Shown here piece after piece: positions 30,618 through 62,275 of a stretch of DNA of 64,000 nt. The notes under the pieces are model-generated. The model did no database searches. It saw nothing but the letters and a program-made list of their open reading frames with translations, and was not told the DNA's origin. Origin of the DNA: Acidobacteriota bacterium (GTDB lineage Bacteria; Acidobacteriota; Terriglobia; Terriglobales; Acidobacteriaceae); the NCBI GenBank assembly GCA_021793405.1, contig JAJYSV010000007.1, positions 1 to 64,000 of the forward strand. The letters run 5' to 3'. A program made the position numbers and the translations under genes. How positions within the stretch are numbered: position 1 is the first letter of the stretch; each line of letters begins with the position of its first letter.

Positions 30618-33600
30618 TGCCTGCTTCCGATAAGCCCCGCATCTCCCCGGCAAAGCTCGCGCTCGCTGTTCGGCGGCTGCGAGCTGAGAAGGAAGATCTC
30701 GATCTGATCGCCTCCGACCCGATCGCCGTGGTTGGGATGGGATGCCGCTTTCCGGGTGGAGGCAATTCTCCAGAAGAATTTTGGACAGCTCTCAAGGAAG
30801 GATGCGACGGCGTCAGCGAAGTTCCTGAGGGACGCTGGAAAGACGCTGCCGAGCTTCCGCTCCAACTCCGAAGAGGAGCCTACTTACCAGAGATTGACGG
30901 ATTCGACGCTGCGTTTTTCGGCATTTCACCACGCGAGGCGCAACTGATGGACCCACAGCAGCGATTGCTGCTGGAAGTGACATGGGAAGCGTTATGGGAT
31001 GCTGGGATTGATCCCGCGAGTCTCGCCGGCACGGATGCCGGAGCATTCATCGCCATTTACAACAGCGATTACGCGCGGCTCCATTTCCGCGACACCTCAG
31101 CCCTGACTGCGCACGGAGGGATCGGCAGCGCGCATAGTGTTGCGGCTGGGCGGCTATCATTTTTGCTCAATCTAAAAGGACCGAGTCTGGCCATCGATAG
31201 CGCGTGTTCTTCCTCGCTGGTTGCCACCCATCTCGCCTGCCAAAGCCTGCGCAGCCGGGAGTGTGGTCTTGCCATTGTAGGTGCGAGCAGTCTCAAAACG
31301 CTTTCCGATGAAGTGATCGTATTTTCAAAGTGGGGAATGCTGGCGAGCGACGGAAAGTGCAAGGCATTCGATGCCAGCGCCGACGGTTTTGTGCCGGGAG
31401 AAGGCAGCGGCGTCGTCATTTTGAAGCGGCTTTCGGACGCGCTTCAGGATGGGGACCGCGTCCGCGCCGTGATTCGCGGCACGGCCGTGAACCACGATGG
31501 GAAAACAACCGTGCTGACCGCGCCGAACGGCCTGGCGCAGGAAGCCCTCTTTCGCGCGGCGCTGAGCAATGCCATGCTTGCGCCCGGCGACATCAGCTAC
31601 ATTGAAACGCACGGCACCGGTACCTCGCTTGGCGACCCCATCGAGATCGAGGCCGTCAGCGCAGTGTACGGACAGCCGGGTACGGGAGCGCCACCTTGCA
31701 TACTGGGCGCTGTGAAAACAAACTTGGGCCATCTCGAGGCAGCGGCGGGAATCGCCGGAATCATCAAAACAGTGCTGTGCCTTGAGCACGGAGAAATCCC
31801 GCGAAATTTGCACTTCCACCGGTTGAATCCGGAGATTTCTCTCACTGGTACGCGCCTGAAGATATCAGCGGAAAACACGCCATGGGCCCGCGGCGAAAAA
31901 CCGCGAACCGCCGGTGTCAGCTCGTTCGGTTTGGGGGGCACGAATGGCCATGTAATTTTGGAAGAAGCACCCCTGCTTCCAACACAGAACGCCGCCAGCG
32001 GCCGCACAATTCCGCTGCCAGCCTACGCGTGGAAACGCGAGCGATTCTGGCTGGCTGAAGTTCTCACCGCGAAGCGGATCGATCAAGAGGCCACCCCCGC
32101 ACGTGTTCCCGCCGATGGGCTTGTCCACCCGTTGCTGGGAAAACAAATTGAATCTGTCTTCATTCAGGGTAAGCTTTTTGAATCGGAACTCGACACATTC
32201 GCCGATTCTTACCTGGCGGATCACACCTTGGGGTACCGGCCTATTCTTCCGTTCGCGGCATTTCTGGAAATCGCGGCGGCGGCGCTTCGGCAAATAGACA
32301 AGTCCGGCAGCTCGATCCGCAATCTTGTAGTCCGTGATCCACTCTTTCTATCTTCCGGCGGTTGCCGACTGCAAGTGCTGGTTACCGACGGCTCTATCGA
32401 GATGGCCAGCGTTAGCGGGACCCGCTGGACAACGCACACCAAAGGCTCGGTTCAGCCATCGGACAGGGGAATACCTATCGTCGATCTGGCCGGTCTGCAG
32501 GCAAGCTGCCAGAAAGAAATTTCTGCAAACGATATCTATGACATTTTGGAGCGCACGGGCCTTCGCTATGGAACGGCCTTCCGAACGATTCAGGCGGTGT
32601 GGTCCGGCAAGGGCGAATCACTTGCGCGCCTGCGCTTGTCGGAAGAGGCGGCAAGAGATGCGCAGCAGTACGGACTGCATCCCACGTTGCTCGATGGTTG
32701 TTTGCAGACCGTTATCGCCGCGCGAGAGGAATCGAACGCCGACTTATTTCTGCCCATCAGTGTCGATCATTTCGAGTTGCTTCAGACGGGCAAGACCGAA
32801 GTCTGGGTCCACGTAAAGGTTGTCGCTTCCAGCGCAGAGGCATTTTCCGCCGATATTGTCGTGATGGACGCCTCCGGCAGCGTCGTAGCGCGGCTCGTCG
32901 GTTTTCAAGCAAAGCGCGCGAACGCAGTCACGTTGAACCAGGCACCTTCCAGCGATTCGGCTCCAATGTATGAGTTGGCGTGGCGCCCCGCACCGCTGGC
33001 GGCTGGAGTTAGGTCTTCCCGATCCGGCGAGCACTGGCTGCTGATCGAGTCGCAGGAAGGAAGTTGCAGCCATCTGGTGGATCTGCTGGAGCAACAGGGT
33101 GGCAAGTGCGACGTGCTTGTTCGCGGCGCACAATCTCTTCACTCCATAATCGCCAAGGTTGCATGGTCGGGAATCGTATATGACGCGCGCGGAAGTGAAA
33201 ATCCCGGGGATGCTTCCGAGTGGACTCACCCGGAAAAGAATGACGTAGAGTTTGTTCTGGAGTTTGTAAAGTTTCTGGGAATTCCAAACGACGCAGTCGC
33301 TCCAAGGATTTGGATCGTATCTTCCGCTTCTGCGGCGGTGTTGCCATCGGAGAGTGTATCGATTGCGCAATCGCCTCTGTGGGGATTGGCGCGCACGCTG
33401 ATGCTGGAGCATCCAGAGACTTCGCCGGTTCTGATCGATGTCGGATCGGAGATGGGTACCGTAGGCGCATCGCAAGAGATAGCGGAGATGGTGGCTGCTG
33501 AGATGGCTGCCAATGGTCCAGAAGCGATGGTCGCCTTCCGGCACGGGACCCGTTACATAGCTCGGCTGATCCCGGATCTTCAGCGCCCAGAAGCTGCACA

Positions 33601-35821
33601 AAGGCTAAGAATCGATCCGTCGGGCCGTCTGGAAGACCTACGCATCGAAGCGACAAAACGGAAAGAGCCACAACCGCACGAAGTCGAAATCGAGGTGCGC
33701 GCATCGGGCCTGAATTTCCGCGATGTACTGACGGCGCTGGCCATGTTTCCAGCCCGCACTGCGACGCCAGGCGCTGAGTGTGCCGGCACGATTGTGAGGG
33801 TAGGTTCCGAGGTTCGCGGCTTGCAGGTCGGCGATGCCGTTCTCGCCTTCGCGCCAGCCAGCCTGCAAACCTTCGTCAACCTACCGGCAGATTTCGTGAC
33901 GAGAAAGCCGGCGGCCTTGGCCTTCGCCGAGGCAGCTGGAATTCCAATTGCGTTTTTGACCGCGGAGTATGGCCTGCATCGGTTGGCCAACCTCTTCGCT
34001 GGACAACGTATTCTGATTCATGCCGCCGCCGGTGGATTGGGATTGGCCGCCGTCCAGTTGGCGATGCGTGCGGGTGCAGAAGTATTTGCCACCGCCGGCC
34101 ATCCAGACAAGAGGGCGTTTCTGGCAAAGCTGGGGGTGGAGCATATCTTCGACTCGCGCTCACTCTCATTTCGTGACGAAGTATTGCGGGTGACCGGAGG
34201 AGTGGGTGTCGATGTGGTGCTGAACTCACTTGCCGGGGAGTTTATTCGCGCCAGTCTCGATGTCGTGGCCGAAGGCGGTTGTTTTCTCGAAGTGGGCAAG
34301 CGCGATCTGTGGAGCGCTGAAGAAGTGGCAGCACTTGGAAAGCATATTCGCTATTTTCCATTCGACCTGGGCGAAGTGGCAACGGATGATCCGAAGCTGA
34401 TTGCGAAGATGTTGAGTGAGTTGATGGGGCGTTTCTCAACCGGTGAACTGCAGCCATTGCCAACCACGCTCTATTCCATTGAAGACGCGGCGCAGGCCTT
34501 CCGCACCATGGCTCAGGCCCGCCAGATTGGGAAGATCGTGCTGGGGTTCGATAGCGCAAACCGAGGCCAGACTGTTCGCGACGCAGTATCGGATGGCACC
34601 GTATTGATTACAGGCGGCCTGGGAGCATTAGGCTCGCAGTTGGCACGATGGCTGGCAGGACAAGGAGCCAAGCACATCGTTCTCGCGGGCAGAAGCGCGG
34701 ATGATAGCGGAGAAAACTCGGCTGTCGTAGAGCTGCGCAACCAAGGTGTGGATGTCACGATCGAGCGCGTCGATGTAGCATCATCCTCCCAATTGCAGCG
34801 ACTTCTCGATGATATTCGTGCTGCGCGACCGCCGCTGCGCGCCGTGTTTCATGCCGCCGGCGTCCTGCACGATTCTGTGTTGGGCAAAGAGTCATGGGAC
34901 TCCTACTGCGAAACCACGGCGCCGAAGATTCAAGGAGCGTGGAATCTCGATCGGCTAACTCAGCACGACCCGATCCGGCTTATGGTGTTTTTCTCTTCGG
35001 CGGCATCTGTCCTTGGTTCGCCTGGGCAAGGAAGCTATGCCGCGGGCAACGCATTTCTCGACGCGCTGGCGCATCATCGCTCCAGCCGGGGGCTGGCGAC
35101 GCTCAGCGTGAACTGGGGAGCGTGGGCGTCGTCGGGAATGGCTGCACGCCTGACACCGGAGCAATCCGCCCGATGGACTCGGCAAGGAGTAATCCCTATG
35201 GAGCCTCGCGCTGCATTGGCGGCACTCCAGACGGCTATCGAAGCAGGTCGTTCGCAGGTCGCGGTGATGGATCTGGATTGGGAACAATTTCTCAGCGCCG
35301 GTCCAGCGCGACGAGATGTCGCCTTTTTCTCCGAACTTCAGTCGTTCGAACGCGAGCACAGAGAACAGCACCGGAGTGACCATGTTCAACCGGCTCGCAG
35401 GATCGTCGAGGAGCTGCGCTCCGCTCCAGAATTCGAACGGAAATTTCTTTTGTCTACGCACATAAAAATATGCGCGCGTCGAGTGCTGGGGTTGCGGGAA
35501 TCGGCGCCCATTACGGATAGCGTTGCATTGCAGGATGTTGGATTGGACTCTTTGATGGCCCTCGAAATGCGGAATGATCTCTCGCAGTCTTTGGGCATAA
35601 CGCTGGCAGCGGGTCTGCTATTCGACCATCCGTCCATCGAAGAACTCACCCAGCATTTACTTGGAATTTTGGCGCCATCCATAGAATCTGTCGCCGCAAC
35701 CACAGTGCCGGACGATGCAACCGGCGCAACGATCGAGTTGCAATCCATAAGTGACGCAGAGGCGGAACTGCTCCTGATTCAAGAGCTCGATCGAGCCGGA
35801 AGGGAAAAAGCGAATGCCTGA
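30617..35821 (+). CDS. Type I PKS module 2 lacking AT: KS-DH-ER-KR-ACP
   Basis: A 1,734-residue module. A coiled-coil N-terminal docking helix precedes KS (about 33-450; Cys197 in DSACSSS, HGTGTS, KTNLGH). An AT should follow, but after the KS end (GHVILEEAPLL) only about 15 residues remain before the post-AT linker motif LPAYAWKRERFWL. DH (His536 in DHTLGYRPILP; HPTLLDGCLQ), ER (about 995-1310; HAAAGGLGLAA), KR (about 1325-1510; GGLGALG, SYAAGNAFLD, LHD) and ACP (Ser1645 in GLDSLM) are all intact. The preserved linker shows precise loss of an AT rather than descent from trans-AT PKSs. The carrier must be loaded by another AT. Its 3' end overlaps PKS3 by 8 bp. Confidence 0.94.
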   Translation: MPASDKPRISPAKLALAVRRLRAEKEDLDLIASDPIAVVGMGCRFPGGGNSPEEFWTALKEGCDGVSEVPEGRWKDAAELPLQLRRGAYLPEIDGFDAAFFGISPREAQLMDPQQRLLLEVTWEALWDAGIDPASLAGTDAGAFIAIYNSDYARLHFRDTSALTAHGGIGSAHSVAAGRLSFLLNLKGPSLAIDSACSSSLVATHLACQSLRSRECGLAIVGASSLKTLSDEVIVFSKWGMLASDGKCKAFDASADGFVPGEGSGVVILKRLSDALQDGDRVRAVIRGTAVNHDGKTTVLTAPNGLAQEALFRAALSNAMLAPGDISYIETHGTGTSLGDPIEIEAVSAVYGQPGTGAPPCILGAVKTNLGHLEAAAGIAGIIKTVLCLEHGEIPRNLHFHRLNPEISLTGTRLKISAENTPWARGEKPRTAGVSSFGLGGTNGHVILEEAPLLPTQNAASGRTIPLPAYAWKRERFWLAEVLTAKRIDQEATPARVPADGLVHPLLGKQIESVFIQGKLFESELDTFADSYLADHTLGYRPILPFAAFLEIAAAALRQIDKSGSSIRNLVVRDPLFLSSGGCRLQVLVTDGSIEMASVSGTRWTTHTKGSVQPSDRGIPIVDLAGLQASCQKEISANDIYDILERTGLRYGTAFRTIQAVWSGKGESLARLRLSEEAARDAQQYGLHPTLLDGCLQTVIAAREESNADLFLPISVDHFELLQTGKTEVWVHVKVVASSAEAFSADIVVMDASGSVVARLVGFQAKRANAVTLNQAPSSDSAPMYELAWRPAPLAAGVRSSRSGEHWLLIESQEGSCSHLVDLLEQQGGKCDVLVRGAQSLHSIIAKVAWSGIVYDARGSENPGDASEWTHPEKNDVEFVLEFVKFLGIPNDAVAPRIWIVSSASAAVLPSESVSIAQSPLWGLARTLMLEHPETSPVLIDVGSEMGTVGASQEIAEMVAAEMAANGPEAMVAFRHGTRYIARLIPDLQRPEAAQRLRIDPSGRLEDLRIEATKRKEPQPHEVEIEVRASGLNFRDVLTALAMFPARTATPGAECAGTIVRVGSEVRGLQVGDAVLAFAPASLQTFVNLPADFVTRKPAALAFAEAAGIPIAFLTAEYGLHRLANLFAGQRILIHAAAGGLGLAAVQLAMRAGAEVFATAGHPDKRAFLAKLGVEHIFDSRSLSFRDEVLRVTGGVGVDVVLNSLAGEFIRASLDVVAEGGCFLEVGKRDLWSAEEVAALGKHIRYFPFDLGEVATDDPKLIAKMLSELMGRFSTGELQPLPTTLYSIEDAAQAFRTMAQARQIGKIVLGFDSANRGQTVRDAVSDGTVLITGGLGALGSQLARWLAGQGAKHIVLAGRSADDSGENSAVVELRNQGVDVTIERVDVASSSQLQRLLDDIRAARPPLRAVFHAAGVLHDSVLGKESWDSYCETTAPKIQGAWNLDRLTQHDPIRLMVFFSSAASVLGSPGQGSYAAGNAFLDALAHHRSSRGLATLSVNWGAWASSGMAARLTPEQSARWTRQGVIPMEPRAALAALQTAIEAGRSQVAVMDLDWEQFLSAGPARRDVAFFSELQSFEREHREQHRSDHVQPARRIVEELRSAPEFERKFLLSTHIKICARRVLGLRESAPITDSVALQDVGLDSLMALEMRNDLSQSLGITLAAGLLFDHPSIEELTQHLLGILAPSIESVAATTVPDDATGATIELQSISDAEAELLLIQELDRAGREKANA

Positions 35822-38800
35822 TTCCATTTCCGATCGCAACAACAGTTCTCCGGAACTGTCGCCCGTCAAGCGGGCACTGCATGAAATTCGCGCCTTGCGC
35901 GCCCGGGTAAACGAACTTGAGTCGGCGCAACATGAGCCGATTGCAATCATTGGCACCGGGCTAAGATTTCCCGGGGGTGTGATCGATGAGTCATCATTTT
36001 GGAAGTTGCTTGCCGAAGGATGCGACGCGATTACTGAAATTCCGCGCGACCGATGGGACTGGCGCGCGTACTTCAACGCCGATCCAGACGCTCCCGGCGC
36101 GATGGTTACGCAGCATGGCGGATTTGTTGCTGGAGTCGATCGCTTCGATGCTGCGTTCTTCGGCATCTCTCCGCGCGAAGCCATAGCCATGGATCCCCAG
36201 CATCGCCTTGCTCTGGAAGTTGGTTGGGAAGCACTCGAGAATGCCGGGTACAGTCCCGCCGTGCTTCAGGACACGCCGACGGGGGTGTTCCTCGGTATAG
36301 GCAATCACGATTATGGCCGTTCTGCACTAGCAGATATTGAGCACATCGATGCGTACACTGGCTCCGGCAATTCTCCCGCCATGGTTGCGGGGCGCCTCTC
36401 GTATGTATTGGGTCTGCACGGGCCGTCGTTGGCCGTCGATACTTCCTGTTCGTCTTCGTTGGTTGCGGTCCATCTTGCCTGTCAGAGCCTGCGGGCAGGG
36501 GAGTGCAAATTTGCGCTGGCGGGTGGAGTGAATCTCATTCTGTCGCCCGATTCGAATATTGCACTATCGAAGGCGCACATGATGGCGCGCGACGGGCATT
36601 GCAAGACTTTCGATGAAGCAGCAGATGGTTATGTGCGCGGCGAGGGCTGCGGAATCGTCGTGTTAAGAAAATTGTCCGACGCACTCGCCGATGGTGATCG
36701 CATCCTCGCGGTCATTCGAGGATCTGCCGTGAACCACGATGGGCGCAGCGGAGGGTTGACCGCGCCCAATGGTCCAGCGCAGGCGGCGGTAATTCGCTCC
36801 GCACTCGAAGTCGCGCAGGTAAACGCGGCAGAGATTGGATATCAAGAAACCCACGGCACCGGCACGGCATTGGGCGATCCCATTGAAGTGGAAACGCTCG
36901 CGTCCGTAATGGGCAGCGGACGGGCCGCTGATACTCCAGTGGCGATCGGCTCGGTGAAGACAAACATCGGACACCTGGAAGCGGCCAGCGGTATAGCGGG
37001 CCTGATGAAAGCTGTGCTTGCGCTCCAGCATCATGCCATTCCGCCGAGCCTGCACCTGAAGCAAAAAAGTTCTCACATCGATTGGGATCGCCTACCGGTT
37101 GTGGTGCCGACCGAGATTGCCGAATGGAAGCCCCTGAACGGCCATCGATACGCCGGTGTCAGCTCGTTTGGATTCAGCGGAACAAATGCACACATCGTGC
37201 TGGAAGAGGCTCCAAAGCTGGTACGTGTCGCGAGCGTCGGCGAATGTCCAAAACATATCCTTACCATTTCCGCAAGATCGCAGGAAGCCCTCGACAGTCT
37301 CCGGGTACAGTACGCGGCTGCTCTCCGTGCATCTTCCGCAGATGCATTGCCGAACCTTTGTTTCACAGCCAATTCCGGACGCACGCACTTTGCTCATCGC
37401 ATGGCTGTTATAGCAGAGACTGCCGAACAGATGGCAACAGCATTGGAGCAGGATCAGAATGTTCGATCATCCGCATGTATATTTACCGGAATTGCCGAAG
37501 ACGGCGATGCGGGCCGGATCTGTTTTTTATGTACGGGGCAGGGGAGCCAGTATGTAGGGATGGGTCAGGAACTGTATGCAAGCTCGGAGGTATTTCGCGC
37601 GGCGATCGAGCGATGCGCGGCGGGGTGGAAAGAAGAGACAGGCGAGTCGCTGATCGAGGTGCTGTACCCGCAGGAAGGCGAGGTCAACAGAGCGAACGCC
37701 GAGAGCCGAATGAAGCAGGCGCGGTACGCGCAGGCGGCATTGTTTGCCTTGGAGTATGCGCTGGCGGAGTTATGGCGCAGTTGGGGGATCGAGCCGAGCG
37801 TGGTGCTGGGCCACAGCCTGGGAGAATATGTCGCAGCGGTGATTGCAGGCGTGTTCAGCGTGGAGGATGGACTGCGGTTGGTATGCGCGCGGGCGCGGCT
37901 GATGGACACGTTGACAGAACCGGGAGCGATGCGATCGATAGGAGCGACCGCGGAGCGGGTGCGGCAAGAGATTGCAGGGCTGGAATCGGAAGTAGGGATT
38001 GGAGTCATCAACGGGGCGGAGACGGTGGTGCTGTCGGGGCTGGCCGAGACGGTGGAGAGGGTGGCGAAGAAACTCGAAGCAGAGGGTATTCGGACGCGGC
38101 CGCTGGAGGTGACGCATGCCTTTCACTCACCGTTGCTGGAGCCGATCCTCAACGAGTTTGAATCCTGTGCGGGGAAGGTGCAGTATCATGCGCCGCGCAT
38201 TCGCATCATCTCGAATCTGACGGGAAAGGCGGCGCGAGCCGAAGAGATTACGACGGCGCAATACTGGCGGGAGCATATGCGCCGGACGGTGCAATTCGAT
38301 GCCGGCCTGAAGACCGCGCTCGAAACCGGCTGCCAGACCCTGCTCGAAATCGGCCCCCAGCCCCATTTGAAGGCCCTCGCGGTGCGCTCGGATGCATCTC
38401 TGGAATCACGCATCAAGATCTCACTACGACGGCAGAAAAATGACTGGGATCAAATGCTGGAGACACTTGCCACGTTGTATGTCGAGGGAGAAGCGGTTAA
38501 TTGGCGCGGCTTCGAAAGGGGTCATCGCCGCACCCGCATGGCACTTCCCACCTATCCATTTGAGCGCCAGCGGTACTGGCTCGCTTCGGAGGACGGAGAC
38601 GTTTCCCTCCGGAAATGGCAGTGCGCCACGGGGGCGGCATTGTCACAGTCGAGACTCGTGCCGATCGGCTTGAAGGTCGAATCGTTCGCCGCTAAATGGA
38701 TGGCCCTCGAACGATTGACGATTGCGGAGATCCTCCGAGCACTGCGAGGTCTCGGCGCCTTCGCTACGGCCGGCACCTCCCATGACGCGAAATCACTTAC

Positions 38801-40277: not shown

Positions 40278-43200
40278 ATGGATGAGGCAAAGAAATCGAC
40301 GGAAGGATCGGCGCTTCTCAAGCAGGCCTTTCTCGCGGTCCAGGAGATGCAGGCGAAGCTGGAGGCGGCGGAGCTGCGCTCTCGCGAGCCCATTGCGATC
40401 ATCGGCCTGGGATGTAGATTTCCAGGCGCAGTGGTCAATGGCGACACCTTTTGGGATCTGCTTCGGGAGGGTCGCGATGCGATTTCGCTGGTTCCACCCG
40501 ATCGCTGGGATGCCGACGCATATTATGATCCCGATCCCGATCAGCCCGGCAAAATGGTGACGCGCTGGGGCGGATTTCTCGATCAAATCGATCAATTCGA
40601 TGCAAAGTTTTTTGAGATTGCACCCCGAGAAGCGGCCAGCATGGATCCGCAGCAGCGGCTTGCGTTGGAAGTCGCCTGGGAAACATTGGAGAACGCTGGG
40701 GTTGCTCCAACGGATTTACGCGGCACAAAAACCGGGGTCTTTTTGGGCATCGCCAGCAACGATTATAGCCAGCTCTTTGCGCAGACTGGCGATCCTGAAG
40801 CGATGGATGCGCATTACGCTTCGGGTATTGCGCACAGCATTGCGTCAGGGCGTATTTCCTACCTTCTTGGACTGGAAGGTCCCAGTATCTCTTTAGACAC
40901 AGCTTGCTCGTCGTCGCTGGTTGCGGTTCATCTGGCCTGTGAGAGCCTGCGCGCGGGTGACTGCAGTCTTGCTCTGGCAGGCGGCGTGAATGCGATGCTG
41001 GCTCCCGAAACGACTGCTCTCCTGTCGCGTGTCCGCATGCTCTCGCCAGGTGGCCGCTGCAAAGCGTTTGATGAAAGCGCGGACGGGTTTGTTCGGGGCG
41101 AAGGCTGCGGCTTCGTGGCGCTGAAAACCCTGTCCCAGGCGCAGGTCGATGGCGATCGCATCTTGGCGGTGATTCGCGGCACAGCCATCAATCAAGACGG
41201 CGCGAGTAGCAGTCTGACTGCTCCCAATGGTCCATCGCAGGTAACCCTGATGCGACAGGCCCTTGCAACTGCCGGACTCCGGCCCGCAGATGTCTCCTAT
41301 GTCGAAGCCCACGGGACAGGAACCGCATTGGGTGATCCGATCGAGCTTCAGGCCCTGGGAGCCGTCTATGGGGCGGCGCGTCCGCAGGACCGGCCTCTTC
41401 ATGTGGGTTCGCTCAAAACGAATCTAGGCCATCTGGAGGCAGCGGCAGGCATCGCGGGACTCATCAAGACGGTCCTTGCACTCGACCATGCCCAGATTCC
41501 TCCGCACCTCCATCTCAAGCAGCCGACTTCGCACGTGCGATGGGATGATTTGAGGCTCACGGTTCCGGGGCAATTGATCGACTGGGAGACAGACGGGCAG
41601 GAGCGCATCGCGGCCGTCAGTTCGTTCGGATTCAGCGGCACCAACGCGCACATTATCGTGGCCGCAGGTTTGCCAGACAACACTCCCCGCAGCAATACCG
41701 GCTGGCCGGTGCAGGTACTTGCGCTATCGGCAAAGTGCAATTCGGCGCTCAAGCAGTTGACGGAGCAGTATCGCGCAGTTCTTGAACAAGCGCCCCCAAC
41801 CGACCTGCGCGATGTTTGTTTTACCGCGAATACTGGCCGGTCACACTTTCCTCATCGCGCATGTTTCCTCGCCGCCGATGCTGAGCAGATAAGGCAACAG
41901 CTCGCAGCTTTTCAGAATCCGGCCGTACCGGTCGCCACTGCGGCGGGCCGGATCTGTTTTTTATGTACGGGGCAGGGGAGCCAGTATGTAGGGATGGGGC
42001 AGGAGCTATATGCAAGCTCGGCGGTATTTCGCGCGGCGATCGAGCGATGCGCGGCGGCGTGGAAAGAAGAGACAGGGGAGTGGCTGATCGAGGTGCTGTA
42101 CCCGCAGGAAGGCGAGGTCAACAGAGCGAACGCCGAGAGCCGAATGAAGCAGGCGCGGTACGCGCAGGCGGCATTGTTTGCCTTGGAGTATGCGCTGGCG
42201 GAGTTATGGCGCAGTTGGGGGATCGAGCCGAGCGTGGTGCTGGGCCACAGCCTGGGAGAATATGTCGCAGCGGTGATTGCAGGCGTGTTCAGCGTGGAGG
42301 ATGGACTGCGGTTGGTATGCGCGCGGGCGCGGCTGATGGACACGTTGACAGAACCGGGAGCGATGCGATCGATAGGAGCGACCGCGGAGCGGGTGCGGCA
42401 AGAGATTGCAGGGCTGGAATCGGAAGTAGGGATTGGAGTCATCAACGGGGCGGAGACGGTGGTGCTGTCGGGGCTGGCCGAGACGGTGGAGAGGGTGGCG
42501 AAGAAACTCGAAGCAGAGGGTATTCGGACGCGGCCGCTGGAGGTGACGCATGCCTTTCACTCACCGTTGCTGGAGCCGATCCTCAACGAGTTTGAATCCT
42601 GTGCGGGGAAGGTGCAGTATCATGCGCCGCGCATTCGCATCATCTCGAATCTGACGGGAAAGGCGGCGCGAGCCGAAGAGATTACGACGGCGCAATACTG
42701 GCGGGAGCATATGCGCCGGACGGTGCAATTCGATGCTGGCCTGAAGACCGCGCTCGAAACCGGCTGCCAGACCCTGCTCGAAATCGGCCCCCAGCCCCAT
42801 TTGCTGAGTCTCGGCAAGTCGGCTCACAACGCTCCCGATTGCTTCTGGTTGCCGTCGGTCCGCAAGGGGCGCAATCCGTGGCTTGACCTTCTCAGCTCGG
42901 TCAAGACCCTCTATGAGCTAGGAGCGGAAATCAACTGGAAAGCTCTTTACGGAAAGTCCGGCCGTCCCATCGCGCTACCGACGTATCCGTTCGAGCGCCA
43001 ACGTCATTGGTTCCCGATGAAGCCAGAAAGGATTTCCGCATCTCTTCCGCTCTGCTCCGCCGGAAACCATCCACTGCTGGGTGCGCGCGTCAACTCGCCT
43101 CTTGCGGAAATTCAGTTTGCATCGCAGATCCGTCCCGATCATCCATCGTACCTTGGCGACCATGTTGTAGCAGGGCAACGTGTAGTTCCGGCAGCGGCAT

Positions 43201-46200: not shown

Positions 46201-46907
46201 GTATCAACTGGGGACCGTGGAGTGAGACCGGAGCCGCAGTGCGCCATCGCGTGGTGCAGCGAAAATCGAGAATGGGTGTCGGCGGTATCTGCACGAGCGG
46301 TGGCCTGCAAGTGCTCGAGATGCTGATGGCTGATGGTCGCGCTCAGGCAATTGTTGCGCCGATCGACTGGAAGCAATACTTTGCCAACCGCAGTATTGAA
46401 TCCGATGGGGATTTGAATCGCCCACTCCTGCGTGAATTGCGGGTCGCGTATGAAGCGAAAAGCGCGACCCCGGCAGCGCAGAAGAAAAAGCATCCATCCT
46501 GGCGGCCACAATTGGAAGCGGCTGCTCCAGCCCAGCGGACGCGAATATTAATGGACCTGATTGCGGAGCGCGTCAAGGCTACTTTGGGAATCCATAGCAC
46601 TCAGGAAATCGATCCAAGTCAACCCTTACAGGAGCTTGGGCTGGACTCTCTGCTATCGATTGAGCTTCGCAATTCGCTGGGAGCATGTCTGGGCCAGAGT
46701 CTCCCGGCTACTTTGTTGTTCAACTATCCCACGCTCAATGCTTTGGCTGGATTCATTTCTCGCGAGGCGCTCGGGGACGCACCGGAAACAACAGTGGCCA
46801 GGAAATCTGAATTGGCGCCCACAAGGCTTGTCGAAGACATCGAAGCGCTTTCCGATGACGAAGTAGATCGGCTGCTGAGCGCGCGAGCGGCAGGGGGCGT
46901 GCGATGA
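40278..46907 (+). CDS. Type I PKS module 4: KS-AT-DH-ER-KR-ACP
   Basis: A 2,209-residue module with a full reductive set. KS (about 37-460) has Cys210 in DTACSSS. AT (about 555-850) has Ser658 in GHSLGEY and THAFHS (malonyl). DH (about 925-1230) has His962 in the exact HxxxGxxxxP motif HVVAGQRVVP and HPIALDACFQ. ER (about 1485-1790) has LIHAGAGGVGLAA. KR (about 1805-1990) has TGGLAGIG and a VLDD motif (B-type), but the catalytic Tyr is His1952 (QANHAAANAFLD). ACP Ser2124 lies in GLDSLL. If the KR is inactive, DH and ER would have no substrate and a ketone would remain; His at this position may still be compatible with activity. It overlaps PKS5 by ATGA. Confidence 0.94.
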   Translation: MDEAKKSTEGSALLKQAFLAVQEMQAKLEAAELRSREPIAIIGLGCRFPGAVVNGDTFWDLLREGRDAISLVPPDRWDADAYYDPDPDQPGKMVTRWGGFLDQIDQFDAKFFEIAPREAASMDPQQRLALEVAWETLENAGVAPTDLRGTKTGVFLGIASNDYSQLFAQTGDPEAMDAHYASGIAHSIASGRISYLLGLEGPSISLDTACSSSLVAVHLACESLRAGDCSLALAGGVNAMLAPETTALLSRVRMLSPGGRCKAFDESADGFVRGEGCGFVALKTLSQAQVDGDRILAVIRGTAINQDGASSSLTAPNGPSQVTLMRQALATAGLRPADVSYVEAHGTGTALGDPIELQALGAVYGAARPQDRPLHVGSLKTNLGHLEAAAGIAGLIKTVLALDHAQIPPHLHLKQPTSHVRWDDLRLTVPGQLIDWETDGQERIAAVSSFGFSGTNAHIIVAAGLPDNTPRSNTGWPVQVLALSAKCNSALKQLTEQYRAVLEQAPPTDLRDVCFTANTGRSHFPHRACFLAADAEQIRQQLAAFQNPAVPVATAAGRICFLCTGQGSQYVGMGQELYASSAVFRAAIERCAAAWKEETGEWLIEVLYPQEGEVNRANAESRMKQARYAQAALFALEYALAELWRSWGIEPSVVLGHSLGEYVAAVIAGVFSVEDGLRLVCARARLMDTLTEPGAMRSIGATAERVRQEIAGLESEVGIGVINGAETVVLSGLAETVERVAKKLEAEGIRTRPLEVTHAFHSPLLEPILNEFESCAGKVQYHAPRIRIISNLTGKAARAEEITTAQYWREHMRRTVQFDAGLKTALETGCQTLLEIGPQPHLLSLGKSAHNAPDCFWLPSVRKGRNPWLDLLSSVKTLYELGAEINWKALYGKSGRPIALPTYPFERQRHWFPMKPERISASLPLCSAGNHPLLGARVNSPLAEIQFASQIRPDHPSYLGDHVVAGQRVVPAAAYLDMALSAAKAAGLAAPGESSSVRAVAFLQPCIFDEPRNLQCVLRSQERGHSFAIYSCAAETEAEDDATGPQWVLHATGELSSDPRGQSMQENLEAIRKRCGEEKDSNTFYRAFDELGVRFGVSFRPVTRVFLGANEALVEFALPPDIDAAPYQIHPIALDACFQAVAAILSPSADSRGAIYLPAALEELRITGDPRTVALAHARVRRGSPDESGLPVTADVYGFDPSGHLLVSATGLMLRPFDREAQEWSGSNSISESIYEVVWIPVEGAAQAVFNPSNIDAQPSAPDAARTAMNAIHGTCVLAGAGDEAWTSSLTHVLRRDGISCATMQPGEAETKLAAIGNEMASPISDLIYLATPASDISQIEPADGMKIEAQILGECLRIVQALLALDLKTTPRLWIVTRGAQGPAVSNVLQSTVWGFGRSVAAEYPEMRVVRIDLDPSRETTGEELLRLVQAKQSLPEIASEDELAWRGNEIYVPRLRPIASLSSTPERDCSAEEPNEQLALVSVGTLDGIELIPTGRRSPEPGEIEIRVHAAGLNFRDVLNVLGMYKGKSGPLGGECAGTVVRVGSGVKAFRPGDQVVALGQGCFARFVTARANMAWRKPANLSFEAAVTIPVAFLTAKYALETLAGIRSGDRVLIHAGAGGVGLAAIQIAQKAGATVFATAGSAEKRAYLASIDVGHVMDSRSIEFAREIREITHGRGVDIVLNSLSGQFIDAGLEILAPGGRFIEMGVADLRSQESVAKVRPDVTYTPFNLAPALESGDSFVRETLTAIFDQFQSSTLHPLPQKTFPLEKAQESFRYMAQARHIGRVVLCPALNLNLASIRPDGAYLVTGGLAGIGLSIAEWLSQRSAGQVIVLGRSAPSADAAKVFDRMRSAGTGVSICQGDVSKEADVAAALHYADKFPLLGVFHCAGVLDDGALLQQDWDRFERVLSPKLEGVCHLHHLTAGKRLDHFVLFSSIASIFGSEGQANHAAANAFLDAMAQYRNAHGLPALSINWGPWSETGAAVRHRVVQRKSRMGVGGICTSGGLQVLEMLMADGRAQAIVAPIDWKQYFANRSIESDGDLNRPLLRELRVAYEAKSATPAAQKKKHPSWRPQLEAAAPAQRTRILMDLIAERVKATLGIHSTQEIDPSQPLQELGLDSLLSIELRNSLGACLGQSLPATLLFNYPTLNALAGFISREALGDAPETTVARKSELAPTRLVEDIEALSDDEVDRLLSARAAGGVR
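41943..42803 (+). repeat. AT-domain repeat, copy 2 (in PKS4)
   Basis: Second copy of the 861-bp AT segment of PKS3 (37509-38369). Both ends fall at domain borders: the start is at the first beta-strand (GRICFLCTGQGSQ) and the end is after EIGPQPHL. The exact borders suggest homologous replacement of one whole AT by another. Confidence 0.9.
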
Positions 46908-49900
46908 GCGATTTTCTCGACAGAATTTCGAAGCTTTCGCCACAGCGCCTCGCGTTATTGGCTGACGAGTTGAACGAACGCGTGCAGGCCGCTGAAAAAC
47001 AACGAAGAGTTCCGCTCGCTGTTATAGGGATGGGCTGCAGATTTCCTGGCGGAGTGCATGATCCGGAGCAATTCTGGGGGCTATTGAGCGAAGGGGTCGA
47101 TGCGATCAGCGAGGTGCCCGCGTCGCGTTGGGACACGCAGGAATTCTACGATCGCAATCCAGCGACGCCGGGGAAAATGACGACGCGCTGGGGCGGTTTT
47201 ATTGACGAACCGGATCAATTCGATCCAAAGTTTTTTGGGATTGCGCCCACCGAAGCCATAAGTATGGATCCGCAGCAGCGCTTGTTGCTGGAAACTTCGT
47301 GGGAAGCGCTGGAACATGCCGGCATTGCGCCCTCGCGCCTGGGGGGTACCAAGACAGGGGTTTTCGTCGGCATTTGTAATGGGGATTACAGTCAAGTGGC
47401 CCTCAGTTCGCCACGGGAGAAAATCTCACCATACTTTGCGCCCGGACTTTCCCATGCAGTGGCCGCAGGCCGCATCTCGTATGTGCTTGGGTTTCAGGGC
47501 CCCAGCCTGGCGGTGGATACATCGTGCTCGGCCTCGCTGGTTGCAGTCCATCTGGCTTGCCAAAGCCTACGGCTCGGGGAATGCAATGCGGCGCTGGCAG
47601 GCGGAGTGAACCTGATTCTCAATCCAGAAATTACGATTGCCTTATCGCAAAGTCGCATGATGGCCCCGGACGGCCGCTGCAAGGCATTTTCAGAATCAGC
47701 CAATGGCTTTGTGCGCGGCGAGGGATGCGGCATGATTCTGTTGAAGCGGCTGCCCGACGCGATCCGCGACCGGAATCGCATTCTAGCTGTGATTCGCGGC
47801 TCAGCATGCAATCAGGATGGACGCAGCAGCGGTCTGACTGTTCCCAATGGGCCCTCGCAGGAGGCTGTCATTGCCGCCGCTCTGGCTGACGCAGGCATGA
47901 ATCCCAACGACGTGGACTACATCGAAGCGCATGGTACGGGGACCTCACTGGGCGATCCCATCGAGGCAGGCGCGTTGAATGCCGTCTTTACAGACCGATC
48001 GAAAACCTCGGGACCTCTGCTCGTCGGGTCGGTGAAAACCAATCTCGGCCATCTGGAATCCGCTGCGGGAATCGCTGGGCTGATGAAACTGGTACTGTCG
48101 ATCCAACATGAAAAAATTCCAGCCAGCCTGCATTTCGAAACACCGAACAGCCGCATTGAATGGGACCATTTGCCGATCCGAATTCCGACGGAACTTCAGG
48201 CGTGGGCTCGCCGCGGGCGCACGCGAGTGGGCGGCGTCAGTTCGTTCGGGTTCAGCGGTACGAATGCGCATGTCATCGTAGAAGAATACCTCCAGGACGC
48301 AATCCCCAGGGTCGCCGCGTCGGCAAACGCCGGTCCTACAGCAGAACAGGCGTATCTCTTTCCGCTTTCGGCAAAGACCGGAACCGCATTGACGGCCGTA
48401 GCGGCGCGGTTGCATCGTCATCTGCTCGAGCATCCATCGCTTCTGCTCGCCGATATCGCGCGCACGCTGAATGCAGGCCGTTCGCATTTTGAGTATCGTG
48501 CAGCTCTGGTGGCAGCCTCGCGCGCGGAATTGCTCGAACGGCTGCATGGGTTGGCAAACGATAATCCTCCCGCGACCGTCCAGATGGGACGCATTCTGAG
48601 CCACTCCCCACGGATTGCTTTCGTTTTCGGAGGCGAAGAACCGGCTCTCCAAGTTGGAGGACAGCAACTCTACGAACGCTCGGCGGCATTCCGCGAAGCG
48701 GTGCAGCAGTGCGAAGCGATTATAAGAAACGAACTTGGATTGCCGCTTCATTCTCCTCTGTGCGGAAGTGCCAATCCATCTGAAGACCAGACAATCAGTT
48801 CACCGGCGTGGTATGACGAGGTTGCTGCTTTTGCCCTCCAGTACGCACTGGCGGAATTGTGGCGATCCTGCGGCATTCAACCCTCTGTGGTCTTCGGTTA
48901 TGGCACTGGTGAACTTGTCGCGGCCAGTGTCGCCGGGGTCTTCGATCTGTGCGATGCCTTGCGCCTTACAGTTGCGAACGGTGAGAAAAGTCTGTCCAAG
49001 CTGGAAGAATGCGCGAAGCAAATCCGGTTTAGCGCGCCACGAATTCCTCTTCTTCCAAATTTACTCAACCCAGCTCGGCGCGAAGTTTCAGTGAATTCCG
49101 CCGACTACTGGCGACTTGGTTCCCAATCCACGGTTCCTTCCAGGGAAGCGTTCCCGCTGCTGGCGAAAGAGAGTTGTGCGGCATATCTCTATATGGGAGA
49201 CGGCTCGGCGCTTCAGCAATTTACGCGACTCGCGGACGGCGATCTGACAGGGAAGTGTCTAGCTTCGTTCAGTCAAGATCGAGGCGACGATTTGCAATTC
49301 CTCCGCACGGCAGCGGCATTGTATGTTCTTGGCTGCGAGTTGGACATGGACGGATTTTCCTCGATAGCAGCGGCGAATACAGTCGCGCTTCCCACGTACC
49401 CTTTTGAACGGGAACGATACTGGCTGGACCCAGTTACCGAAGATCGCTCCAAGCCGAACGCGGGTAAGAAAAACCTGGATCAAGACAATCCTGCAGGGTC
49501 ACCTTTGGATACCCCATACAATCCAACCGCGGACCCGCGGATTGCGGACGTTGATAAGTGGATCTATGACCTGGTGTGGGAATCCAAGCCGCTCTCACGC
49601 AAAACATCACGGTCCACAGCAAGACTGGATGACGATCTGATCGGGAGTCTGGCGGTCACGCCTGCGAGCGAGGATCTTGTGCGTGTTGAACGCCTCATGT
49701 CTGCGATGAAGCCCGTCTATGCGACGTACATCCTCCGTGCTCTTCAGGACGCAGGCCTGTCACCGCTTCCCACTGCGGCATTCAGCCTGGATGAACTGAG
49801 CCAGCGGTTGAAGATCATTCCCACACGCCGCCGCGTGCTGGGACGGATGCTGGCGATACTGGCGGAAGACCGCATCCTAGAGCGCACGGCGGATCGCTTC

Positions 49901-52537
49901 CGCATTGTGGATTTCTGTCCTCGTCCAGAGGCAGAACTCGCGCTTGACAAACTGAGCGCTGAATATCCGGAAATGCTGACGGAAATCAATATCCTCAAGA
50001 GATGCGGGAAAAAATTGTCGGCTGTGTTGCGGGGAGAGTATGACCCCATGCAGCTTGTGTTTGCGGATGGCTCCATTGGAGAGGCCGAGAAAATTTACGA
50101 ACAGTCACCGGTGTGCCGTTTTTTCAATGACAAGGCTGCCAAAGTAGTTCGATCGTCGGTGGAGTCGATAACGGAGCGCCCAGCGCGCATTCTTGAAATC
50201 GGAGGCGGTACTGGAGCAACAACCGTCCCGATTTTGTCGACGCTTGCGGACAAGAACATCGAGTACGTATTTACCGATGTCTCTCAAGTGTTTTTGTCCC
50301 GGGCACGCGTCAAGTTTTCCAAGACGTCATCCATGAGCTATCGAATTCTCGATATCGAGAACGATCCTCTCGGGCAGGGCTTCGAAGCGGGCGCCTATGA
50401 CATCGTCATCGCCGCGAACGTCCTGCATGCAACAGCCGATCTGCGTCAAACCTTGGCACACATTCGCGCGATACTCGCGTCTGGTGGAATGCTATTGCTC
50501 GTGGAGGGGGTTCGTCCGGACCGCTGGCTGGATCTCACGTTCGGCCTGACGGACGGCTGGTGGCGAAGCAGAGACGTTAATCTCCGTCCAGAGCATCCGA
50601 TGGTTTCCGCCGAGAGTTGGGTGCGCTTGCTGAAGGAGGCGGGAATCGGTTCCAGCCGGACCATTTCCTATGTTCTGGGAGACGGCTCGTCTTCCCAGCA
50701 GACTGTCATCGTCGCGCAGGTTGACGCGGACAATACGCTTGCCAGTGAAAATTTAGAAAAGCCGAGCAGGCACTGGATGATTTTCGCGGATGAGTTCGGC
50801 GTGGGAGATGTTCTCGGCAAGTTGCTGGACGCCAAGGGCGAATCCTACGAGACGATTCGTCACCCGAGAACTGCAATCGAAATCGCTTCCGAGTTTCATC
50901 GGTTGAAGACAACGCGTCGACAGGACTTCTCGCAGGAGGTCGTCTATCTGTGGGGAATGGATGTAGCCGATCCGATTGGATCGAGCGGCGCGCTGGAACA
51001 AGGAGAAGAGATTTGCGGCAAGACGTTGGTGCTGCTGATTCAGGCGCTGCTGGAGCCTACTGAAGGAAACGCGCATCTGTGGATCGCGACGCGCGGCGCA
51101 CAGGCTACCGATTCTTTTTCACCGTCAATCGGCGGGGCCTTGCAATCCCTCGCGTGGGGAATTGGGCGCGTTCTAGGACTGGAGGCTCCGGGGCTGTATC
51201 GAGGGCTGATCGATCTAGACCCGGCGCTCACGCCAGAGGCCGCCGCGAGGAGCCTGCTGGGTGAACTGCTGGGCGCCGACCGGGAAGATCAGGTTGCATA
51301 CCGTGATGGCGAACGCCTCGTGGCGCGCCTGAAACATGCACGTCTCAAGGGTCCGACCACACAGGTAAAGCATGGAATCCGCGGGGATGCTTCGTATTTG
51401 ATCGTTGGCGGCTTGGGCGGAGTCGGTCTGCAAGTGGCGCGCTGGACAGCGGAACAAGGCCCCGGCCACCTGCTATTGCTCAGCAGGACTGGAATGGGGA
51501 GCGACGCTGGTCCATTCGCGGCGGAGCGCCTGAAGACAATCAGGGAAATTGAGGCGCTGGGGGTAAAAATTACTGTGGTCGCGGGAGATGTCGCTTCTCC
51601 CACGGACATGAATCTTCTCTTCGGTCGATTCGGACGGGAATTTCCGCCGTTGCGTGGAGTATTTCATGCTGCCACAGTTGTCAGTGGGGCGAAACTCTTC
51701 GATCTCACCGAAGAAACCGTCGACAGGATGTTTCGGCCCAAAGTTCTAGGCGCATGGGAATTGCACGAGCAAACGAAAAATCTGAACTTGGATTTTTTTC
51801 TGGTATTTTCTTCTACGACTTCTTTGCTTGGAGCAAAATGGTTGGCCCATTATGCCGCCGCAAATCAATTTCTAGACTCGTTCGCTCACTCTCGCCGCGC
51901 ACTGGGACTGCCCGCGCTGTCCATCAATTGGGGGGCGTGGGACACGATGTGGTCTGTCTCACCCCGGGAACAAGAGCGTTCTGCCGAAGCAGGTTTGCTC
52001 CCCATGTCTTCCGAGAAGCTCTTCAATCTATTCGGAGACCTGATTGTCTCTTCCCGTGCGCAAGTGATGATCGCAGATGTGGATTGGAATGTTTTGAAGC
52101 CAGCTCTCGAATTTCAAAGAACCAGACCGCTCCTGGAGGACTTTGGCACGAGACGCGTAGCACAAAAGGAGGCACGCGCTGCATCTATTCCGCTCGCGTC
52201 CAGTCTGCATAAAGTAATGGAGATGACGCCGGAGAAACGGAGAAAATCGATTGAAGCATTCATCCGCGAACAAGCCAGCCAGATATTGGGCTTTCATCGC
52301 GATGAAGTGCTGCCCGCCGATGTTTCTCTGACCGATCTGGGCCTGGATTCGCTGATGGCGGTAGATTTGAAAAATCGTCTGCAGGCTGGGCTCGGCCAGG
52401 AATTGTCCCCTACAGTCGTTTTCGATTATCCCAGTGTTTCTGAAATGGTAGGCCTGCTCGAAACCATGCTGTGGGCCGCTCACGGCAGCATGGAATCCGA
52501 ACCTGCAACACTGCTGAAGGACGAAATTCGCATATGA
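46904..52537 (+). CDS. Type I PKS module 5: KS-(degenerate AT)-cMT-KR-ACP
   Basis: A 1,877-residue module. KS (about 30-455) has Cys208 in DTSCSAS, HGTGTS and KTNLGH. The AT region (about 565-800) is broken: the nucleophile motif GHSxGE reads GYGTGE, with Gly667 in place of Ser. About 80 residues that normally include the HAFH specificity loop are missing between ALRLTV and KQIRFSAPRI. The post-AT linker YPFERERYWL is intact. A C-methyltransferase (about 950-1290; LEIGGGTGATT, ANVLHATADLR), KR (about 1495-1690; GGLGGVG, HYAAANQFLD, no LDD, so probably A-type) and ACP (Ser1816 in GLDSLM) follow. The expected unit is alpha-methyl-beta-hydroxy, provided the ACP is loaded in trans. Confidence 0.94.
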   Translation: MSDFLDRISKLSPQRLALLADELNERVQAAEKQRRVPLAVIGMGCRFPGGVHDPEQFWGLLSEGVDAISEVPASRWDTQEFYDRNPATPGKMTTRWGGFIDEPDQFDPKFFGIAPTEAISMDPQQRLLLETSWEALEHAGIAPSRLGGTKTGVFVGICNGDYSQVALSSPREKISPYFAPGLSHAVAAGRISYVLGFQGPSLAVDTSCSASLVAVHLACQSLRLGECNAALAGGVNLILNPEITIALSQSRMMAPDGRCKAFSESANGFVRGEGCGMILLKRLPDAIRDRNRILAVIRGSACNQDGRSSGLTVPNGPSQEAVIAAALADAGMNPNDVDYIEAHGTGTSLGDPIEAGALNAVFTDRSKTSGPLLVGSVKTNLGHLESAAGIAGLMKLVLSIQHEKIPASLHFETPNSRIEWDHLPIRIPTELQAWARRGRTRVGGVSSFGFSGTNAHVIVEEYLQDAIPRVAASANAGPTAEQAYLFPLSAKTGTALTAVAARLHRHLLEHPSLLLADIARTLNAGRSHFEYRAALVAASRAELLERLHGLANDNPPATVQMGRILSHSPRIAFVFGGEEPALQVGGQQLYERSAAFREAVQQCEAIIRNELGLPLHSPLCGSANPSEDQTISSPAWYDEVAAFALQYALAELWRSCGIQPSVVFGYGTGELVAASVAGVFDLCDALRLTVANGEKSLSKLEECAKQIRFSAPRIPLLPNLLNPARREVSVNSADYWRLGSQSTVPSREAFPLLAKESCAAYLYMGDGSALQQFTRLADGDLTGKCLASFSQDRGDDLQFLRTAAALYVLGCELDMDGFSSIAAANTVALPTYPFERERYWLDPVTEDRSKPNAGKKNLDQDNPAGSPLDTPYNPTADPRIADVDKWIYDLVWESKPLSRKTSRSTARLDDDLIGSLAVTPASEDLVRVERLMSAMKPVYATYILRALQDAGLSPLPTAAFSLDELSQRLKIIPTRRRVLGRMLAILAEDRILERTADRFRIVDFCPRPEAELALDKLSAEYPEMLTEINILKRCGKKLSAVLRGEYDPMQLVFADGSIGEAEKIYEQSPVCRFFNDKAAKVVRSSVESITERPARILEIGGGTGATTVPILSTLADKNIEYVFTDVSQVFLSRARVKFSKTSSMSYRILDIENDPLGQGFEAGAYDIVIAANVLHATADLRQTLAHIRAILASGGMLLLVEGVRPDRWLDLTFGLTDGWWRSRDVNLRPEHPMVSAESWVRLLKEAGIGSSRTISYVLGDGSSSQQTVIVAQVDADNTLASENLEKPSRHWMIFADEFGVGDVLGKLLDAKGESYETIRHPRTAIEIASEFHRLKTTRRQDFSQEVVYLWGMDVADPIGSSGALEQGEEICGKTLVLLIQALLEPTEGNAHLWIATRGAQATDSFSPSIGGALQSLAWGIGRVLGLEAPGLYRGLIDLDPALTPEAAARSLLGELLGADREDQVAYRDGERLVARLKHARLKGPTTQVKHGIRGDASYLIVGGLGGVGLQVARWTAEQGPGHLLLLSRTGMGSDAGPFAAERLKTIREIEALGVKITVVAGDVASPTDMNLLFGRFGREFPPLRGVFHAATVVSGAKLFDLTEETVDRMFRPKVLGAWELHEQTKNLNLDFFLVFSSTTSLLGAKWLAHYAAANQFLDSFAHSRRALGLPALSINWGAWDTMWSVSPREQERSAEAGLLPMSSEKLFNLFGDLIVSSRAQVMIADVDWNVLKPALEFQRTRPLLEDFGTRRVAQKEARAASIPLASSLHKVMEMTPEKRRKSIEAFIREQASQILGFHRDEVLPADVSLTDLGLDSLMAVDLKNRLQAGLGQELSPTVVFDYPSVSEMVGLLETMLWAAHGSMESEPATLLKDEIRI

Positions 52538-60578: not shown

Positions 60579-60637
60579 GCGGGTCACTTTCGGCCAGGGC
60601 CGGATCGTTCGGTGTTGCCTGGGACCTATATAAGCGT

Positions 60638-62275
60638 ATGCAGGAACTTACGACGGGCCAATTTATTAGCCTCCTTCGACAGCGGAACATCGACGTCCGC
60701 GCCGAGGACGGGCGGCTACACATCAGCGCACCGGCTGGTGCGGTGGATTCGCAGCTTCGCAGAGAACTCGCGCGCCGCAAGGGCGATCTCCTGTCGACTC
60801 TACAGAATGCCGGCGCCGTTCGCCCGCAAAGCCCGTTGGTCCCGGCAGGACGGGCTGGAAAAATTCCCCAGACAGGTGCCCAGCAAGGGCTGTGGCTCAT
60901 CGATCACTTCGATCCCGGCTGCGTTGCATACAACATTCCCATCGCCTATTTGGTGGAGGGGCCAGTGGATTTGGCGGCTCTCCAGATGGCCGCCGACCAG
61001 ATGCTTGTCCGCCATGAAATACTGCGCACCTCCTTCTATGAGGAAGATGGCGATCTTTTTCAGGCTGTTGCCCCCGAGGCCGGTACCATGGTGGAGTTCA
61101 CGGATCTTTCGAGTCTTGCCGAAACCAATCGAGACCAGGAACTCGATACGTTGATCCGTGAACAGGCGCGACGGCCATTCGATCTGCATCAACCGCCGCT
61201 GGTTCGGTTTCACCTGTTCCGTCTGACGGAGCAGCGGCACGTGGTATTTTTCAACATTCATCACATTATCGCTGACCGCAAATCATTGACGATTTTGTGG
61301 GAGGAACTCAGAATCCTGTATCAGGCGGCAATGCGAAATGAGACCGCCAACCTTCCCAAGCTTCCCATTCAGTATGCCGATTATGCCATGTGGGCGGCCC
61401 AACATCTGGCCGATGGTCGAATGCAGGAGCAAATCCTGTATTGGAAAACAAAGCTTGCTGGGTTGCCTGCCTATCTGGACCTTCCCACCAACCGCCCATA
61501 TCCGGAAAAACGGACGCCGTGGGGCGCAACCACTCCTGTCGTGATAGATGTATCGTTGCGAGATGCAATGATGGAAATTGCCCAGCAAGAGGGCGCCACG
61601 ATGTTCATGACGCTGCTAGCTGCCTTTGCCGTTCTGCTGTACAAGCAATCGGGGAAAGAAGACTTTTGTATCGGCTCCCCCAGCACGCTGCGCAAGCACG
61701 TGGAAACAGAGTCTATCATCGGGTTGTTCGTGAACATGCTTGTGTTCCGTTGTGACCTGGGCGGCGAGCCCAGTTTCCGGGATGTTCTACGACGCGTACG
61801 TAGCACCGCCCTGGAAGCCTATGAGAACAGCGATGTGCCTTTTCAGGAAATAGTCCGGGCCTTGAAACCCGACCTTAGATCGTTACGGTCCCCGTTTTTT
61901 CAAGCGATGTTTGGCTTTGACTCTGAGGATGGAAAAGGAACCAGCGGTTTGATACAACTCGACACAAAACCAGGTACAGCAAGATTCGATCTAACATTGC
62001 AACTAACCGAGCATGCTGACGGGATTTCCGGTTCCTTTGAATATTGCACCGATTTGTTTGACGCGCTGGACATGGCGGAGCTCAGCGGACGACTCGTTGC
62101 TTTACTCCGAGAAATCAGCGCGTATCCAGACCGTTCGGTCTCCAAATTAGAAATTCCTGCTACGAGCCGAGGAGAGGGAACTGTGGCGGATGCTCAGATG
62201 GAGAACTCGAACTTCTGGAGGCGAGCGACCAAACACGCCACGGAACGATTCGCGCATCGCTTCCAAAGGAATTGA
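60638..62275 (+). CDS. Terminal NRPS fragment: TubC-type docking-condensation domain
   Basis: A 545-residue protein. Residues 1-57 (MQELTTGQFISLLRQRNIDV onward) are a second TubC-type docking domain. The rest is one condensation domain with the catalytic motif HHIIADR (His208, His209, Asp213), in which the usual Gly after Asp is Arg214. No adenylation, carrier or thioesterase domain follows; the C-terminal 35 residues (from GEGTVADAQMENSNFW) match nothing. In the +1 frame from 62157 the DNA reads LLRAEERELWRMLRW, close to the normal C-A linker, so the gene seems to have lost its A-PCP part by a frameshift and deletion. It may still act as a releasing C domain using a free amine or alcohol. 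Confidence 0.9.
   Translation: MQELTTGQFISLLRQRNIDVRAEDGRLHISAPAGAVDSQLRRELARRKGDLLSTLQNAGAVRPQSPLVPAGRAGKIPQTGAQQGLWLIDHFDPGCVAYNIPIAYLVEGPVDLAALQMAADQMLVRHEILRTSFYEEDGDLFQAVAPEAGTMVEFTDLSSLAETNRDQELDTLIREQARRPFDLHQPPLVRFHLFRLTEQRHVVFFNIHHIIADRKSLTILWEELRILYQAAMRNETANLPKLPIQYADYAMWAAQHLADGRMQEQILYWKTKLAGLPAYLDLPTNRPYPEKRTPWGATTPVVIDVSLRDAMMEIAQQEGATMFMTLLAAFAVLLYKQSGKEDFCIGSPSTLRKHVETESIIGLFVNMLVFRCDLGGEPSFRDVLRRVRSTALEAYENSDVPFQEIVRALKPDLRSLRSPFFQAMFGFDSEDGKGTSGLIQLDTKPGTARFDLTLQLTEHADGISGSFEYCTDLFDALDMAELSGRLVALLREISAYPDRSVSKLEIPATSRGEGTVADAQMENSNFWRRATKHATERFAHRFQRN

Follow-up and report, generated by a model that had tools for sequence, protein, structure and literature searches.

A shortened acyltransferase core lacking its catalytic residues is conserved in a mixed cis-AT/AT-less polyketide synthase line of Acidobacteriota

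In module 12 of the irumamycin polyketide synthase (PKS) the GHS serine of the acyltransferase (AT) is a glycine, and the authors infer that the domain is inactive and that its ACP is loaded by AT11 (PMC11672594). This is the terminal module of a Streptomyces line and, as far as the accessible part of that account goes, it has lost the motif only, with removal of a subdomain, conservation and a test of selection not described (PMC11672594). The AT of the pep cluster is called truncated in a pathway that works and makes its product, and the portion of the source available describes neither the nature of the truncation nor the loading route. In algal PKSs integrated ATs were displaced during evolution and loading takes place in trans (PMC4661987). 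Trans-AT (AT-less) PKSs have modules with no working AT that retain a linker and a post-AT remnant and contain C-methyltransferases. An AT-null DEBS module is reportedly loaded by added malonyl transferase and FabD is said to serve the FK228 PKS, in both cases by experiment. A search of the literature for 'inactive acyltransferase' and 'AT0 domain' returned nothing.

We analysed a 64,000 nucleotide stretch of DNA from an Acidobacteriota bacterium (the window), in which two of six PKS modules, PKS2 and PKS5, are AT-deficient, as a preliminary description made from the sequence had correctly stated. Going by what the source gives of irumamycin module 12, it and PKS5 both belong to cis-AT lines with one Ser-to-Gly AT (PMC11672594), and the shortened PKS5 AT resembles that of the pep cluster by description. 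The trans-AT features listed above also occur in the line studied here; unlike trans-AT PKSs, however, the genome has no dedicated trans-AT and most modules have working cis-ATs, and whereas linkers alone remain in those systems PKS5 keeps the entire alpha/beta core of the domain. AT displacement in algae was complete (PMC4661987), in contrast to the acidobacterial loss, which is partial, module by module and leaves a folded remnant. The features used here are as follows.

30617..35821, forward strand: PKS2, KS-DH-ER-KR-ACP, lacking both the AT and the KS-AT linker domain, the sole remnant being the post-AT motif LPAYAWKRERFW; orthologs also AT-less
37509..38369, forward strand: PKS3 AT, intact, its DNA 99.1% identical to the PKS4 AT across 861 bp
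41943..42803, forward strand: PKS4 AT, intact, a copy of the PKS3 AT
46904..52537, forward strand: PKS5, an ORF of 1877 aa read as KS-AT(dead)-MT-KR-ACP from its translation, Pfam domains and intact KS Cys/His/His
48239..48616, forward strand: KS-AT linker domain of PKS5, kept (Pfam CurL-like_PKS_C and RhiE-like_linker)
48617..49282, forward strand: AT-derived core of PKS5 (aa 572-793) without small subdomain or catalytic residues, from alignments, AlphaFold2 and orthologs
48896..48913, forward strand: GYGTGE replacing GHSxGE (aa 665-670), with the Gly667 codon at 48902-48904; GYGLGE in orthologs
48968..48990, forward strand: approximate deletion junction in the PKS5 AT, about 83 residues absent (FabD about 118-206, the small subdomain plus flanking Arg117 and His201), from alignments and the secondary structure of the PKS5 and PKS3 models
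49283..49429, forward strand: post-AT linker of PKS5, ending LPTYPFERERYWL, kept and conserved above the AT core (71% identity to the congeneric genome G008)

Alignment to the ATs of PKS1, PKS3, PKS4 and PKS6 places Gly667 of PKS5 against the Ser of GHSLGE in PKS3 and PKS4, which bears out the nucleophile change reported in the preliminary description, and shows that the oxyanion-hole motif GQGSQ has become GEEPA (GQG to GEE), a change absent from that description. From the start of the AT to LPTYPFER there are approximately 256 residues in PKS5 versus approximately 340 in PKS3 and PKS4; the absent block is the PKS3 stretch from the Arg motif CARARLM to beyond HAFH. The earlier figure of about 80 deleted residues including HAFH therefore holds, at a net loss of about 83 and with the Arg117-type motif also gone, and the reading frame and linker are retained as claimed, the ORF being open and LPTYPFERERYWL in place. 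A profile of intact ATs, 372 positions long, matches PKS5 over 7-132 and then again over 217-370, and Pfam Acyl_transf_1 (PF00698) matches over profile positions 2-115 of 319 only, at 47-51 bits (47 as compared with 211 for PKS3 and PKS4). As this is over the cut-off, pipelines that call every PF00698 match an AT will misread such modules. Judged by the features of active members of the family the domain has no Ser in GHSxGE, no His general base (HAFH/YASH), no Arg117 and no small subdomain. Among the three PKS5 orthologs described below there is no invariant His between aa 572 and 762, which leaves no visible candidate for a substitute catalytic pair in the core. The absence of nucleophile, oxyanion Gln, Arg117 and His201 with no conserved substitute supports reading the PKS5 AT as catalytically dead. 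The MT, KR and ACP of the same protein have normal Pfam scores and intact motifs, and the KS Cys-His-His motifs are intact in both PKS5 and PKS2.

An AlphaFold2 model of PKS5 aa 1-845 from 33 sequences (pLDDT 88, pTM 0.88) is predicted to fold with the small subdomain missing, its best structural neighbour being the CurL KS-AT didomain 4mz0 (Z 63); trans-AT KS structures also align to it. In the corresponding model of PKS3 aa 1-934 (pLDDT 90.5) the elements after helix 683-697 are E704-709, H713-719, E727-734, E737-743, H744-756, E761-764 and lastly helix 773-786, so that residues 704-764 form a beta-alpha-beta-beta-alpha-beta unit between two helices that adjoin each other in PKS5, where helix 682-693 runs straight into helix 697-705 and the strands of the small subdomain are absent. 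On the models the deletion took out the ferredoxin-like small subdomain, which in E. coli FabD spans approximately 128-197, together with flanks carrying Arg117 and His201. Since this subdomain is a single contiguous insertion in the AT core its deletion can leave a foldable remainder.

When used as a single-sequence query the PKS5 AT gave no match, but an alignment-based search recovered orthologous PKS5 proteins in two congeneric genomes, both 'Acidobacteria bacterium' MAGs: G008 (C152, JAJZCA010000025.1) and G006 (C279, JAJYBW010000320.1). Both ATs read FGYGLGE and have the same gap in frame, so the state of the PKS5 AT is no accident of one genome. Identity of the window's AT is 54% to G008 and 50% to G006, few parts of PKS5 are less conserved than this domain relative to G008, and with its C-terminal half at just 38% identity to G008 part of its retention may be weak. 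In order to compare domains in the relaxed-constraint test that the preliminary description had proposed we used the unsaturated pair G008-G006 (dS 0.6-0.77), in which the dead AT had an omega of 0.236 (bootstrap 0.158-0.351); the values were 0.054 in the KS, 0.162 in the KS-AT linker and 0.102 (0.064-0.152) in the functional AT of PKS6. The PKS5 KR and ACP gave 0.07-0.08 when compared with G008, a pair that is saturated. Constraint on the AT is thus relaxed 2.3-fold relative to a working AT and 4-fold relative to the KS and is not neutral, and across three species, whose synonymous distances range from 0.6 to above 1.4, there is no stop or frameshift. On these results the domain is under relaxed yet clear purifying selection and is neither a recent nor a neutral pseudo-domain, although an omega of this size can reflect selection just for solubility and freedom from stops.

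A profile of the shortened AT was searched against 396 genomes of the phylum, with an uninterrupted full-length match taken as the sign of a missing subdomain, and 13 genomes including the window's own contained such matches. Outside the window's genus the members examined have the order KS-AT-DH-MT-ER-KR-ACP-KS-AT(dead) with no ACP behind, and the short ATs there have Gly, Asp or some residue other than Ser at the nucleophile position; Thr is also seen among shortened ATs. A tree built from shared columns puts 18 short-AT proteins in one clade (99/96) and the PKS5 group in another (100/100), the latter placed with PKS3 and PKS4 (95/95) and with a long stem branch for the PKS5 AT (1.21). Identical deletion borders had raised the suspicion of a single origin for PKS5 and the 18 proteins, which come from other classes; the tree rejects this (AU p = 0.0005). 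Judged from this tree the same excision arose independently at least twice within the phylum. Further cases in Sulfuricella (L110, gap with GETTGE) and on cyanobacterial plasmids are separate from the acidobacterial ones. Tolypothrix PCC 7601 (P0009; plasmid L113:18300-21530) has the gap and keeps GHSVGE, and PCC 7712 and Aulosira (L114) likewise give a single uninterrupted short-AT match. In G742 (L090; also L117:6963-10043), which also belongs to the family, the subdomain is removed with Ser and Arg kept. Because Ser persists in the subdomain-less ATs of G742 and Tolypothrix, the two losses are, as read from these sequences, separable, and excision recurs.

The 18 proteins (L043:4060-14352, L047:1795-12153 and 16 related ones) are fungal-like highly reducing PKSs in Acidobacteriota that end in KS-AT(dead) without an ACP. 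Their terminal KS keeps its Cys, and both His in all but one (HGAGS/HGGGS variants). One that was examined adjoins phosphopantetheinyl transferase and hydrolase genes.

PKS2 has no AT match in Pfam and only about 30 aa lie between its KS and the LPAYAWKRERFW remnant. Its orthologs in G008 and G006 are likewise AT-less, with DH-ER-KR kept in all three species, and as the PKS5 AT is shortened in both genomes too, both losses predate the split of the three species and the order in which they occurred cannot be read. To speak of two stages of AT loss in one pathway, as the preliminary description did, is thus fair as a description but not as a sequence of events. Related clusters have also lost ATs in several modules and to differing extents. 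In the cluster of G078 (L118 and L116; C3, 178-214 kb) four of the seven PKS modules are AT-less, in a row, with the KS-AT linker kept, and in G043 an intact AT (GHSLGE, HAFH) sits in a KS-AT-MT-KR-ACP module, with C-A and KS-AT-KR coming after it in the order seen in the window. One-to-one orthology of the middle modules of these two clusters with PKS2-PKS5 was considered and set aside because the KS tree lacks resolution there, and we therefore do not claim complementary loss in orthologous modules. A grouping of the PKS5 KS with KS-AT modules of G043 and G078 was weak (88% SH-aLRT) and did not recur. The KSs of PKS2 and PKS5 group among those of AT-containing modules in a tree built without reference trans-AT KSs.

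Although PKS5 matches a trans-AT module in having no working AT, neither its cluster nor its genome supplies a dedicated free-standing AT; a search for one in the window's own genome and in five relatives recovered nothing beyond proteins of FabD size or fragments of these. In G000, G043 and G078, each 99% complete or better, the only ATs outside PKS proteins are single FabD-sized proteins, and in the window's genome, scored 100% complete, the only one is a FabD of 323-326 aa in an rpmF-plsX-fabD locus. Related clusters include modules with a complete AT, with a dead core that lacks the small subdomain, with linkers only and with a post-AT motif only, and have no dedicated trans-AT, a range that makes the transition from cis-AT to AT-less PKSs testable (does the core stabilise the KS, and is FabD enough?). 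Of greater interest is the conservation and repeated origin of a folded AT remnant without its subdomain in mixed-AT lines that have no dedicated trans-AT.

Taken together, selection and predicted fold suggest that the dead core has probably been kept as a scaffold in a mixed cis-AT/AT-less line whose PKS5 ACP would be loaded in trans. The AT would have lost catalysis and its ferredoxin-like small subdomain while the alpha/beta core stayed, packed against the KS and the two linkers that flank the AT (KS-AT and post-AT) and so leaving the module foldable. Retention of the shrunken AT across related species makes it probable that PKS5 is loaded by an outside enzyme and that the dead domain is structural padding. 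A decaying relic without a role, as the preliminary description's 'degenerate pseudo-domain' implied, would account for the lost catalytic residues and the missing 83 or so, the long stem branch, a rate above that of a working AT and the low conservation relative to the rest of PKS5; catalytic death is the part of that description we retain, but free decay sits poorly with an omega far below 1 in an unsaturated pair (upper bound 0.35), a frame open in three species over such synonymous distances and an intact predicted fold, and we regard it as unlikely. Far less credible still is a variant that works through a different nucleophile or carries out a different reaction. Its conservation in three species and the appearance of the same shape elsewhere are what could be expected of one, and the preliminary description had named a conserved short AT with its own nucleophile in a related cluster as a sign of it; the conservation is there but the alternative nucleophile is absent, the core having no conserved Ser/Cys/His pair and the position being Gly in all three orthologs and Gly, Asp or Thr in other shortened ATs, save the Ser of G742 and the cyanobacterial ones.

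The PKS5 module would go on extending the chain with its own KS, MT, KR and ACP, as their intact and conserved state suggests, and the methyl branch would be made by its own C-methyltransferase. Modules that pass the chain on without extension occur in other assembly lines, and PKS5 could be one that cannot be loaded; with its KR, MT and ACP conserved at low omega with intact motifs, and the AT-less PKS2 still keeping DH-ER-KR in three species, this is quite improbable. For the scaffold reading the malonyl unit would reach the ACP of PKS5, and that of PKS2, in trans, most likely from the cell's single free-standing FabD and otherwise from the AT of a neighbouring module, two routes that look alike in sequence; FabD is favoured by exclusion and by precedent, the loading of AT-null modules in DEBS and FK228 being reportedly experimental whereas for PKS5 we infer it. 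Loading by the AT of PKS4 or PKS6, a variant of the same explanation at the loading step, is possible but doubtful. ATs are scattered across modules in related clusters, the preceding module has an intact AT, and in the available text on irumamycin AT11 is proposed to serve module 12 with the same Ser-to-Gly change (PMC11672594); four consecutive AT-less modules in G078, on the other hand, are easier to explain by a diffusible loader. We suggest only tentatively the wider proposition that AT loss in bacterial PKSs has proceeded repeatedly by excision of the small subdomain, a folded alpha/beta core staying behind on the KS, with acidobacterial lines standing between cis-AT and AT-less, served by FabD and never having gained a dedicated trans-AT.

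Several further observations were made on the cluster. The genes surrounding the near-identical PKS3 and PKS4 ATs have diverged, and the 861 bp shared by the two reads as a sign of recent gene conversion. A contig of G006 fuses a PKS4-like KS with PKS3-like downstream sequence at the AT repeat and one of G008 starts close to the end of this repeat, which suggests homogenisation of these ATs in both genomes as well. A type II-like thioesterase gene (23064-23936) lies directly upstream of PKS1, and its product could plausibly proofread for a line that is loaded in trans. At 55965-62275 PKS6 and the following condensation-domain protein are encoded by two overlapping ORFs, which are a single ORF of 2036 aa in G008 and also, judging from its length, in G006; the N-terminus of the condensation-domain protein in the window looks like a docking segment.
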